From an uncultured Phycisphaerales bacterium (GTDB lineage Bacteria > Planctomycetota > Phycisphaerae > Sedimentisphaerales > Anaerohalosphaeraceae): a stretch of 64,000 nucleotides of DNA. The number at the start of each line of letters is the position of its first letter. The stretch's first letter is position 1. This document shows positions 53,073 through 57,605 of the stretch, piece after piece. The notes under the pieces are model-generated. The model ran no database searches. It had not been told where the DNA came from and was given only the letters and a program-made list of their open reading frames with translations. Position numbers and translations under genes: made by a program. Location: NCBI GenBank assembly GCA_937868095.1, contig CALMLO010000042.1, forward strand, positions 62,001 to 126,000. The letters are read 5' to 3'.

Positions 53073-54626
53073 ATGACGCAAGAGAATAATCTGGACGAAG
53101 ATATCCTCCAATGCAGGGCAGAAATTCTGCGTGCCCTCGGAAAACCCGACGAGGACGGCAAAGAGGACGGCAAAAGCGAAGCGACGGACAAACCGGAAAA
53201 CAATAATAATAATCAAGATAATTCCGATTTAGAAAACACTGTTCTTCGGCCGGAGCAAGACCCTGTCGAGACGGAAGCTCCCCTATCTGAACAATCCCTA
53301 ACGGAAAACTGGATAGACCAGACCCTTTCAAATTCGGGCTCTTTTGAAAACATATCACTTCCTGACAAAGAAGACCCTATAAACAGCGATTCCGCCAACG
53401 GCTCGACCGATTTTTCAGCCGAAAAAGAAGAGAAAGAAAATCCTTCAAGTCCTGCTGAAAATCATCCGCCCATCGCAGAGCAAACATCTCTCTCGCTGCC
53501 GAAAGCGATCGAATCCCTCAAAAAAAGACTCCGCATACTCAAAAAACAAAAAGAAAATCTTTCCCAAACCTGCCAGGAACAGGAAAAACATATTGCCCGC
53601 CTCGCCGACGAAATCCAGAATCTTCAACAGCAGCTTCAGCAGGCCCAGCAGACCAATGCCGACTTTTCAGCCCGGATTGCCCATCTGCAGTCCTCTCAGG
53701 AACTCGCCGAACAGCTCAAAACGCAATTGGAACAGACCCAGCATGACCTTGAACAATTGCGGGGCCGGATTCTCTCACTCGAACAGCAGAACGCCCGCCT
53801 GGCCGAGGAAAACAGCAAACTCACCCAGACCCTTGAACTCGAGCGTCAGCACAAGCAGGCATACGAATGTGAACAAACGGCAATGCAGGAAGAAATGAAC
53901 ATTCTCAAAAAGAAGAACGGCGAACTCCAGCAGACCGTGGCTCTTCTAAATCAGGAGAACGAACATCTCCGGCAGGAAAAATCCTCGCTTCAGCAGCAGG
54001 TGCATTTGCTCCAGCAGGGCATCGCCCGGCAGCAGACCGATTTTCAGAAAACGACGGCTTCTCTTCGCGAAGAATTGAATACGAAAACAGAACAGATCGA
54101 ATACTGGAAAGCAGAATATACCCGCCTCAGCGAGCGGTCTGCCTTTATCCAAACCGAGCCGGAACCGCAAGATTTTTTGCCCGATGAAATACCCGCTCAG
54201 CCGGAAGAATCGGATTTTTCAGACTCCAAAAAATCCGCCGAAGAGCCGCTGAAACCCGCTGAAATTTTCAGCCGCCCAACGAAAACCGACTTCTCGATCC
54301 CTTCTTTCAACCTCTCTGAGCAGATCCTTTTCGCCCAGCGCAAAATAAACGGCACACGCCGACAGTCGCCCTCAAACAATACGGCAAACTCCAACGAGTC
54401 GCTGCGCCAGGTGGTTCGGCAATTCGTCAGCACCCCCCAGCCGCCCTCGACCCCCAAACCGGCCATTGCCAAAGAACCCTCTCAGCCGACGCCCCAACCA
54501 AAACCCATTCCAGCACCGCCGGCACAGACCGCACCGGAATCCCTCATTTCCGAAATCGTTCGCAGGGATATTGAGGAGTTTTGCCGCAATCATCAATGGG
54601 TTTATGTGGAGTTCCCCAGCGGATAA
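53073..54626 (+). CDS. Long coiled-coil protein of unknown function
   Basis: Protein of 517 residues, not recognised. The ATG at 53073 follows AGGTGAG; a GTG four codons earlier is possible. Residues 1-145 are acidic and Asn/Ser/Glu-rich, apparently disordered. About 150-360 is a continuous Gln/Glu/Leu coiled coil (for example ILSLEQQNARLAEENSKLTQ). About 365-490 is a Pro/Ser-rich linker, and the final 30 residues (SLISEIVRRDIEEFCRNHQW, VYVEF) look like a conserved folded tail. There is no signal peptide or membrane helix. The next gene starts 5 nt after its stop, so the two probably work together. Confidence 0.75.
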   Translation: MTQENNLDEDILQCRAEILRALGKPDEDGKEDGKSEATDKPENNNNNQDNSDLENTVLRPEQDPVETEAPLSEQSLTENWIDQTLSNSGSFENISLPDKEDPINSDSANGSTDFSAEKEEKENPSSPAENHPPIAEQTSLSLPKAIESLKKRLRILKKQKENLSQTCQEQEKHIARLADEIQNLQQQLQQAQQTNADFSARIAHLQSSQELAEQLKTQLEQTQHDLEQLRGRILSLEQQNARLAEENSKLTQTLELERQHKQAYECEQTAMQEEMNILKKKNGELQQTVALLNQENEHLRQEKSSLQQQVHLLQQGIARQQTDFQKTTASLREELNTKTEQIEYWKAEYTRLSERSAFIQTEPEPQDFLPDEIPAQPEESDFSDSKKSAEEPLKPAEIFSRPTKTDFSIPSFNLSEQILFAQRKINGTRRQSPSNNTANSNESLRQVVRQFVSTPQPPSTPKPAIAKEPSQPTPQPKPIPAPPAQTAPESLISEIVRRDIEEFCRNHQWVYVEFPSG

Positions 54627-54631
54627 AAATT

Positions 54632-55423
54632 ATGTCTGAACTCATCCTGTTAAGCGGATCCCAAGGATGGCTCAAGACAATTTTCGCAGCGGTTTGGACC
54701 TACATTTTTGTTGGCTCCTTCTTTGCCGTGCTTTTAACAGGGATGCTGATTGGCTTACTTCGCACCGGTGTTTTTTCCAGAAGTAAACCCCGCCGAAAAC
54801 AACCCTCCCCCTTCTCATATTTATCCGCCGACAGCGAAACACATTTGTTTCAGGTATTGCAGACAGTGGGCAAACCTCCGCTGACAGTCCTTTTGGCCGC
54901 CGCCGGGCTGGATTGCCTTCCCGTCACCATACCCATTCGGCTGGCAATGCTTTCCAGCCGCAAACACCGCTGTTTGCTGATCGACCTGGACACCAGGCGA
55001 GATGCCGTCTGGAAAGCATTCGGAAATACCTCCCCCGTCACCTTCTCCTCTCTGCCGGCTCCCTCCGGCTTTGAGAATCTTTTCATCATACCGGCGCATT
55101 ATTTCGAGCAAAGTCGGCAGATGAACCTTGGCCCTATTTTGCGAAATGCCGAAAAACAATTCGATTACATTTTCATCAATACCCCCTATTTAGACGGCCA
55201 TCCTGACCGCAATCTCATCGCCTCCTTTGCCGGCTGCGCCTTTCTCTTTGCCAGGGACGAACCGCAATTTCGCCGCCTGACAGCGCTCTGCCGCCGTCAG
55301 AAATGCAAAATCCTCGGCTGCTATAAACCGCCCGCCTCTGCCTCCTTAGAAAACTCTCCCAGCAAAGATGCCGCAGCCGAATCGACCACCCAAACAGTCC
55401 GATGCAGCACCGGCCAGAGATGA
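54632..55423 (+). CDS. Membrane-anchored CpsD/MinD-like protein lacking the P-loop
   Basis: Protein of 263 residues from the ATG at 54632. One membrane helix (about 20-45) is followed by a fold like bacterial tyrosine kinases CpsD/CapB: CLLIDLDTRRDAVWKAFG matches the LLIDaDlRrp Walker A-prime region, and DYIFINTPYLDGHPDRNL matches the DyiiiDtPP Walker B region with Asp replaced by Asn. The expected P-loop before these (GEGKS/T type) is absent; the region reads LLAAAGLDCLPVTIPIRLA. It is therefore probably a non-catalytic relative, perhaps a partner of the upstream coiled-coil protein. Its last 103 bp overlap the convergent pgl fusion gene. Confidence 0.72.
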   Translation: MSELILLSGSQGWLKTIFAAVWTYIFVGSFFAVLLTGMLIGLLRTGVFSRSKPRRKQPSPFSYLSADSETHLFQVLQTVGKPPLTVLLAAAGLDCLPVTIPIRLAMLSSRKHRCLLIDLDTRRDAVWKAFGNTSPVTFSSLPAPSGFENLFIIPAHYFEQSRQMNLGPILRNAEKQFDYIFINTPYLDGHPDRNLIASFAGCAFLFARDEPQFRRLTALCRRQKCKILGCYKPPASASLENSPSKDAAAESTTQTVRCSTGQR

Positions 55424-56508
55424 TGAGCCGGATAACCGGACCCCTCCGGCGAATGCGTAAGCAGCGTGCAAAGAATAGGGGCCTTCTCAGCACCGCTCAC
55501 AAGAACAAGTATCTCGTCGGCGGCCTGAATAACCGGAACCGTCAGCGTCAGACGCTTCAATCCGTCCGGCCCCCTCACGACTCGAACCAGCAAACGCTTT
55601 TCCCCCAGCGCATCTGACCCGGGAAAAAGAGAAGCAATATGACCGTCCTGCCCCACACCCAGCACAATCAAATCCAGAGAAGGAATCTGCCCCTCGTCCA
55701 CACTAAAAACCTTCCGCAAAGTCTTTTCATACCGTTCCGCAGCCGCCTCCAAATCAGCTGCTTCCCCCTCCATCCGATGAACCTGCTCAGCCGGGATAGG
55801 CAGCTTCTTTAGAAATGTCTCCTCCGCAAGGCGATAATTGCTGGCCGCATCGGCAGGTCCCACCGCCCGCTCATCCGTCCAGAACAGGTGAACTCGGCCC
55901 CAGTCAATCTCCTTGGCTTCTGCACAATCGCCGAGCATCTCAAAGAAACGGCGAGGGGTCCGCCCCCCGCAAAGAGCAGCCGTAAAACGCCCGCTCCGCT
56001 CAAGCGACTGCCGGGCTTGACTCAAAAACTCTGACAACGCCAGCCGGGCCAGCGATTCAGCATCTGCCGCACGAAGCAATCGCCCCGAAAAAGAAGAAAT
56101 CGCTGCTTTCCGGGCCTCCAAAAACCCCTCCAGAATCGCCGCCGCCGCGACAGCGTCCAGCCGTTTTTTGCGGCCTTTGCGGGTGAGTTCCATTGCCGCC
56201 AGTTTCTCCTCCGCCGCAAAACTGCTGAGCCGTTCATCAAAAAAAACAATCGGAAGCGCAAGGTGCTTCTTCAATTCCTCCCCAAAACGGCGAACTTGAG
56301 CCGCACGGGGACCTTCCGTCCCATCCATATTGTACGGCAGCCCAATAACAACCGCCTCAACCCGATACTCCTTGGCGGCATTCGCAATTTTCGAAACGCA
56401 ATTATCCGCCCCCGTCAGCACCATCAAGGGGGAAACCACCATTTCAGAAGCATCGCAAACAGCCAGCCCCGTACGCCGCTCCCCGTGATCAATCGCCAAA
56501 AAACGCAT
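55321..56508 (-). CDS. RuvX/YqgF - 6-phosphogluconolactonase fusion protein
   Basis: One continuous 395-residue frame encoding two families. Residues 1-138 are RuvX/YqgF, the RNase H-fold protein linked to 16S rRNA 5-prime maturation and once annotated as Holliday junction resolvase (AIDHGERRTGLAVCD, VIGLPYNMDGTEG, FFDERLSSFAAEEKL, LDAVAAAAILEGFL). Residues about 142-395 are 6-phosphogluconolactonase (ALCGGRTPRRFFEML, HLFWTDERAVGPADAASNY, VLGVGQDGHIASLFPGS). No methionine and no obvious internal start lies near the junction, so a separate pgl product is unlikely. manC lies 17 nt upstream, and the 3-prime end overlaps the opposite gene by 103 bp. Confidence 0.9.
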   Translation of the reverse strand: MRFLAIDHGERRTGLAVCDASEMVVSPLMVLTGADNCVSKIANAAKEYRVEAVVIGLPYNMDGTEGPRAAQVRRFGEELKKHLALPIVFFDERLSSFAAEEKLAAMELTRKGRKKRLDAVAAAAILEGFLEARKAAISSFSGRLLRAADAESLARLALSEFLSQARQSLERSGRFTAALCGGRTPRRFFEMLGDCAEAKEIDWGRVHLFWTDERAVGPADAASNYRLAEETFLKKLPIPAEQVHRMEGEAADLEAAAERYEKTLRKVFSVDEGQIPSLDLIVLGVGQDGHIASLFPGSDALGEKRLLVRVVRGPDGLKRLTLTVPVIQAADEILVLVSGAEKAPILCTLLTHSPEGSGYPAHHLWPVLHRTVWVVDSAAASLLGEFSKEAEAGGL

Positions 56509-56525: not shown

Positions 56526-57605
56526 TTAGAGATAATCCCTTTTGCCTTCTTGCTCGAGCCGCCCCAGCATCTCCTTAATGCGATGGGCCTGATGAAACGG
56601 ACAAATCAGCGTTGCGTCGGGACTGTGAACCACAATCATATCCTCCAGCCCAATCATCGCAATCAAATGCTCCGGCGCCTCCGTAAGCACAATCGTGTTG
56701 CGGCAGTCAAGCAGACACTGCTGGCCGGCAAGAACGCCCTTCTGCTTGGGGTCCGACGAAAGAAACTCAGCCAGCGCCGCAAATGAACCCAAATCAACCC
56801 ACCGGCAGGGAAGCGGTATCCCGTAAACCTCCGATGCCTTCTCAAGAACCGCATAATCAATACTGATTTTAGGCAGATGAGGAAACCACTCCTCCAGCAC
56901 CGACTGCTGCTGCGGCCCTCCCCAGCCGCGCCCAATCTCCTCCAGCGGTACGGCAGATTCAGGCAAAAAGGCCTTCAGCAGGTTCAAAATCGTCTTCGCC
57001 TTCCAGACAAATATCCCCGAGTTCCAGAAGTATCCCCCTTCGGCCAGATACCGTTTCGCGGTTTCTTCATCGGGCTTTTCGCGAAACGCACTGACAGGAA
57101 AAACCCTTTGCTCTTTGCTTGCCGCTGTCGGCAGGCGAATATACCCGTATTGAGTGGCCGCAAAGGTTGGCTCAATCGCAAAAGTAACAATGGCATCCGG
57201 ATGTTCCTGAACAAAACGGCTGGCAGTTTTCAGAGCATCCAAAAACGGCTCTGCCGGCTCAAGAATATGATCGGCCGTCACCACCGTCATCACGGCCTCC
57301 GCATCCGCCTTCGTCAGCACAGACGCCGCCAGCCCGATAGCCCCCACCGTATCCCGAACACACGGTTCCGCAATGATATTGGTTTCGGGCACCTCTGGCA
57401 AAGTTTCACGAATCTGCTCCGCGTACTCCGCGTTAGTCAAGACCAGAATATGCCGAGGGTCAAAAACCCGATTCAGCCGCTCAAAACACGCACGAAGAAG
57501 ACTTCGCCCATTCAGCAGATTCAGCATCTGTTTCGGTCGAGACTGCCGGCTCAAAGGCCACAGCCGCTGCCCCGACCCGCCTGCCATAAGTACAGCAAAA
57601 TCCAT
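56526..57605 (-). CDS. manC: Mannose-1-phosphate guanylyltransferase
   Basis: Nucleotidyltransferase of 359 residues making GDP-mannose from mannose-1-phosphate and GTP. The signature MAGGSGQRLWPLSRQSRPKQ is at the N-terminus; VVTADHILEP, FREKPDEETAKRYL, YFWNSGIFVWKA and SIDYAVLEKA with WVDLGSFAAL follow in family order. It has only the transferase domain and no phosphomannose isomerase fusion. The start has AGGAGCA upstream. GDP-mannose would serve polysaccharide or glycan synthesis. It is followed by the RuvX-Pgl gene. Confidence 0.92.
   Translation of the reverse strand: MDFAVLMAGGSGQRLWPLSRQSRPKQMLNLLNGRSLLRACFERLNRVFDPRHILVLTNAEYAEQIRETLPEVPETNIIAEPCVRDTVGAIGLAASVLTKADAEAVMTVVTADHILEPAEPFLDALKTASRFVQEHPDAIVTFAIEPTFAATQYGYIRLPTAASKEQRVFPVSAFREKPDEETAKRYLAEGGYFWNSGIFVWKAKTILNLLKAFLPESAVPLEEIGRGWGGPQQQSVLEEWFPHLPKISIDYAVLEKASEVYGIPLPCRWVDLGSFAALAEFLSSDPKQKGVLAGQQCLLDCRNTIVLTEAPEHLIAMIGLEDMIVVHSPDATLICPFHQAHRIKEMLGRLEQEGKRDYL

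Follow-up and report, generated by a model that had tools for sequence, protein, structure and literature searches.

Does the long minus-strand reading frame at 55321-56508 really encode two unrelated enzymes as one protein, and if so, does their union serve the cell? The window, that is, the whole stretch of 64,000 nucleotides analysed, belongs to a planctomycete genome of 3.04 Mb (99.6% complete), and its G+C content of 53% and its size are in line with the Anaerohalosphaeraceae as described (PMC11266412). The frame runs from an ATG to a TAG over 395 codons plus the stop without an internal stop codon. A first-pass annotation of the sequence had read it as a complete RuvX/YqgF domain followed by a complete 6-phosphogluconolactonase (PGL), and this reading is borne out by the frame check and by searches with Pfam and NCBIfam. 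The locus is composed as follows.

55321..56508, minus strand: whole fused ruvX::pgl open reading frame, the sole RuvX and the sole PGL of the genome
56116..56508, minus strand: RuvX/YqgF domain, residues 1-131, with D7, E92 and D118 (PF03652, TIGR00250, fold match to 1vhx/7ess)
56065..56115, minus strand: linker, residues 132-148, entered by the RuvX C-terminal helix (110-139), as delimited by the domain ends and the AlphaFold model
55366..56064, minus strand: PGL domain, residues 149-381, with GGRTP, WTDER, GQDGH and RLTLT intact (TIGR01198, fold matches)
56526..57605, minus strand: manC-like mannose-1-phosphate guanylyltransferase gene, co-directional and upstream of the fused gene, a conserved neighbour of ruvX in the family
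56119..56131, minus strand: possible internal start GGAGGGG-TTT-TTG (TTG at codon 130); the Shine-Dalgarno-like run codes for conserved LEGFL

About 100 bp at the 3′ end of the fused gene (window 55321-55423) are shared with the 3′ end of a convergent open reading frame (54581-55423, plus strand). A Pfam search of this convergent frame gave no match. A tail-to-tail overlap with the convergent gene, albeit shorter, also occurs in a genome of the same genus with separate genes (G001).

We searched 148 genomes of relatives for the fused frame. The full fusion is present in 13 species of one planctomycete family, and in a 14th (G005, of the window's genus g1) a contig end cuts the gene, yet the frame reads through the linker. 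In genus g1 the complete fusion is carried by G000, G002, G003 and G004, and elsewhere by all four g12 genomes, all three g16 genomes and two genomes of g13. The remaining family members examined have ruvX and pgl as separate genes. Since the same full-length single frame occurs in 12 further species with separate assemblies, a sequencing or assembly error at the junction that removed a stop codon, which the first-pass annotation had named as a threat to its reading, is excluded and deserves practically no credence. That annotation had also proposed a search of planctomycete genomes. In a sample of 392 Planctomycetota genomes no fusion was found beyond the family at E<=1e-60, a threshold below which a distant fusion might score. 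We inspected ten genomes outside the family in which RuvX sits inside a long open frame, and none of them has PGL in that frame; the extra length is open frame upstream, several times out-of-frame manC. A scan of named genomes returned the fusion only from two Planctomycetota/Phycisphaerae metagenome assemblies, and we found no literature on a RuvX/YqgF-6PGL fusion. The joining of these two known families is a real and apparently undescribed domain combination.

Both halves are assigned with ample scores. Pfam RuvX (PF03652) covers residues 1-131 with 136.3 bits against a cut-off of 29.2, spanning nearly the full profile (1-133 of 134), and the equivalog-level model TIGR00250 scores 101.7 bits against 43.25. 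For the second half, Pfam Glucosamine_iso covers residues 149-373 (216 bits, cut-off 27) and TIGR01198 (pgl), likewise of equivalog level, reaches 186.4 bits against 124.45; the NagB deaminase models stay below their own cut-off (62 bits vs 236.9). Residues D7, E92 and D118 of the RNase H-like site, which we take to be the catalytic acidic residues of the RuvX family, are invariant in 13 of 13 fused proteins, and the PGL motifs GG.[TS]P, DER, G.G..GH and R.TLT, also SN and K, in 14 of 14 fused sequences. Most strongly conserved core positions of both enzymes, these included, are retained. An AlphaFold model of the fused protein, built on an alignment of 11 rows, three of them fused, has a mean pLDDT of 90.3 and a pTM of 0.86. 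Its RuvX half matches 1vhx (TM by target 0.75) and 7ess (0.70), its PGL half 1y89, 3tx2 and 3ico. In the model one helix (110-139) extends beyond RuvX and is followed by a turn of three residues, after which the first PGL strand begins. The length and sequence of the linker vary among the fused genera.

In the genome we found neither another, stand-alone RuvX nor another protein of the PGL/NagB family, and if the two functions are present at all, it must therefore be the fusion that provides them. The genes zwf and gnd are encoded elsewhere (G000:C6 and G000:C32), so that the PGL step of the pathway is needed. A missing oxidative pentose-phosphate branch, which would have made a PGL role odd, is ruled out by the same two genes.

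In all other family members examined that have both genes on one contig, ruvX lies directly upstream of pgl on the same strand. The spacer measures 153-392 bp across the family, apart from the exceptional 1.4 kb of G035, where an opposite-strand open reading frame with a dockerin-like C-terminus (GDINGDCRVDLLDL) is found between the two genes (L040 1677-3070). The order manC-ruvX-pgl is kept across the family wherever flanking sequence is covered. A manC-like gene directly upstream of ruvX (window 56526-57605) was also seen in five of ten sampled distant Planctomycetota (L193, L194, L196, L197, L198); manC-ruvX is an old conserved neighbourhood. Most split genomes show a sequence resembling a ribosome-binding site ahead of pgl. 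An element CGTA(TA|AT) (CGTAATA/CGTATA), a regular expression picked after inspection of the spacers, occurs in 9 of 12 representative spacers, compared with a mean of 1.4 and a maximum of 5 in 2000 shuffles. When the spacers were searched for motifs without supervision, CGTAATAATATAA came out with a score of 48.4, whereas none of 15 dinucleotide shuffles scored above 40.0. We infer that the CGTAATA element is a candidate -10 promoter region of pgl. An Rfam search of nine ruvX-pgl loci for a known RNA element gave no match.

The closest view of the unfused arrangement comes from G001. Its locus (L060) reads from the end of manC to ruvX, which closes with LQGFLDTKK and a stop, then 163 bp, then the ATG of pgl, and it shares with the window the manC gene upstream and the convergent gene downstream. 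At the sites matching the G001 junction the window has ...LEGFLEARKAAISSFSGRLLRAADAESL..., thus the window lacks the ruvX stop together with the spacer and roughly ten codons from the beginning of pgl. Judged from sequence comparison, the layout of G001 probably represents the ancestral state before fusion.

Could the frame be a fusion partly in name only? It is conceivable that the long frame is translated whole but that TTG130 or another internal start additionally yields free PGL. The first-pass annotation had seen no internal start. This holds insofar as the junction contains neither an ATG nor a spacer, but not for alternative start codons, as in-frame TTG triplets stand at codons 130 and 144 and TTG130 (56121-56119) follows a Shine-Dalgarno-like GGAGGGG at a distance of about 3-5 nt; in G002, too, GGAGG precedes the TTG. 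However, codon 130 is CTG in G003 and G004, the run encodes the conserved LEGFL, and an aligned start with a Shine-Dalgarno sequence is absent from the g12, g13 and g16 fusions. Nor was the CGTA(TA|AT) element found in the fused frame of the window. For the first three of these reasons TTG130 is probably unused and the run a coding by-product of LEGFL. Overall we consider internal initiation quite unlikely.

The two domains differ in their divergence. The mean identity of the PGL domain to split genomes outside the clade of fused genera is 39-49% for fused genomes and 51-58% for split genomes of the same clade, without overlap. PGL diverges faster in every fused lineage, although with four lineages only this is a pattern and not a test. 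The RuvX identities, in contrast, overlap (50-56% fused vs 50-58% split), and rpoB distances do not separate fused from split genomes. We relied mainly on rpoB as rate control because zwf, the second control, gave large distances for all genomes. The faster divergence of PGL in fused lineages could reflect relaxed constraint.

As an aside, the RpoB proteins of three family members carry in-frame inserts of about 195-206 amino acids: G034 (L168/L202), G032 (L167/L203) and G036 (L151/L204). G034 and G032 have it near the C-terminus, G036 within the N-terminal third. Weak homology connects the two kinds (30% identity, E 3e-7), and both look similar to GIY-YIG domains (PF20815; the G036 insert matches with E 1.5e-6, the other kind with 0.044). 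It looks as though a single mobile domain had inserted into RpoB at two sites.

How often did the fusion arise? In the rpoB tree the four genera with fusions (g1, g12, g13, g16) form one supported clade, with split genomes nested inside (G001 in g1 and most of g13) and four changes of state. The notion that the fusion is a lineage marker therefore fares unevenly: fusions are confined to this clade of four genera, but split genomes within it, even within g1 and g13, make the character homoplastic, and the fusion cannot be relied on to mark a genus. In the gene tree the fused proteins sit with their own genera; forcing all fused genes into one clade costs 44.9 log-likelihood units and is rejected (p-AU 0.007). 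The gene tree also unites fused g12 and g16 (92/92), which the rpoB tree does not, and these two genera may thus share one event. Counting changes on the rpoB tree does not discriminate, as a single fusion in the common ancestor of g1, g12, g13 and g16 followed by three re-splittings likewise needs four. But such a history would require the split members to regain a spacer with the same element and ribosome-binding site: those within the clade keep roughly the ancestral spacer length (153-201 bp, G035 apart) and share both signals with distant family members, so that re-splitting would have to re-create both. Also the slow PGL evolution in the split members fits genes which were never fused. 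We regard a single ancient fusion as improbable and argue that three or four independent fusions through spacer loss probably took place.

We suggest that the locus is a true fusion of adjacent operon genes, giving one translation unit with two tethered enzymes after the spacer was lost three to four times, and we hold this to be the likely explanation. The ancestor would have carried manC, ruvX and pgl in this order on one strand, with a gap of about 150-390 bp between ruvX and pgl that held a promoter-like element, a ribosome-binding site and the pgl start. An in-frame loss would then have removed the spacer along with the stop of ruvX and a few codons at the beginning of pgl, three or four times in one clade; the loss is seen by comparison, from which we infer the deletion event itself. 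The product should be one protein of about 43 kDa. Its N-terminal RuvX could carry out the housekeeping task of RuvX/YqgF, that is, maturation of pre-16S rRNA ends or junction cleavage, and its C-terminal domain could hydrolyse 6-phosphogluconolactone, the step between Zwf and Gnd, which are both encoded by genes of their own. Most likely each active site works independently of the other, with the extended helix as a tether. As a consequence pgl would lack a promoter and start of its own and would be made one-to-one with RuvX.

A different explanation assumes a functional coupling that was selected repeatedly. PGL would be placed at the site of RuvX action, or one domain would sense the ligand of the other, and the pentose-phosphate flux (NADPH, ribose-5-phosphate) would be linked to ribosome maturation. 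The three to four fusions inside one clade and the retention of both catalytic cores in all of them are in favour of this idea, and the overall pTM of 0.86 suggests a defined packing of the domains. However, we know of no substrate shared by RuvX and PGL, the linkers differ among the lineages, and RuvX has not undergone a parallel change in rate, which one might expect from a co-adapting interface. Moreover, the genes are already neighbours throughout the family, and recurrent fusion does not need a catalytic link. We therefore judge functional coupling to be unlikely. The first-pass annotation had speculated that the fusion ties carbon flux to ribosome maturation. We see no direct support for this, as the prior adjacency of ruvX and pgl across the family is a sufficient mechanical reason for their fusion. 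As the fusion recurs, a functional benefit may nevertheless be involved, and carbon flux and ribosome maturation might be linked through regulation, though this is not indicated. In its boldest form, convergent fusion would reflect real coupling, with PGL carried to ribosome-assembly sites or with mutual regulation of the domains, matching pentose-phosphate output to rRNA maturation; this we consider rather doubtful. We thus retain the fusion of operon neighbours as the preferred explanation.

Here two widespread housekeeping enzymes are combined and the intermediate states are preserved: genes side by side but set apart by a promoter-like spacer, a member of the same genus in which the two are separate, and several lineages with the fusion. 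This is a clean natural system in which to study whether chance or selection drives the fusion of genes adjacent in an operon, and how either partner is affected by it. In this case the sequence of the downstream enzyme changes faster and that of the upstream enzyme does not. The case also calls for caution with the "Rosetta stone" inference of functional links where the fused genes were previously neighbours.

It is instructive to compare the fused protein with known systems. With the RuvX/YqgF family (PF03652, TIGR00250; PDB 1vhx, 1nu0, 7ess), of which YqgF acts on 16S precursors (PMC6943124), it shares the whole RNase H-like domain with the conserved acidic positions, above the curated cut-offs. 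The usual form, however, is a stand-alone protein of about 140 amino acids, whereas here the C-terminal helix runs on into a second enzyme. With DevB-type 6-phosphogluconolactonases (TIGR01198; PDB 1y89, 3ico, 2j0e) it has in common the whole domain above the equivalog cut-off and the active-site motifs, but the fused PGL lacks its own start and first residues, stands behind RuvX and diverges faster in its periphery. A further parallel is provided by the G6PD::6PGL fusions of metazoan H6PD, Apicomplexa, Giardia and Trichomonas (PMC3148214), in which 6PGL is likewise joined to another enzyme, in several independent events. In those proteins 6PGL is joined to the enzyme that acts just before it in the pathway. 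In the fused protein described here Pfam found no G6PD domain, RuvX being the only other domain and zwf lying on another contig; PGL is paired with an RNA/DNA nuclease to which it is unrelated, and it is a bacterium that carries the fusion.
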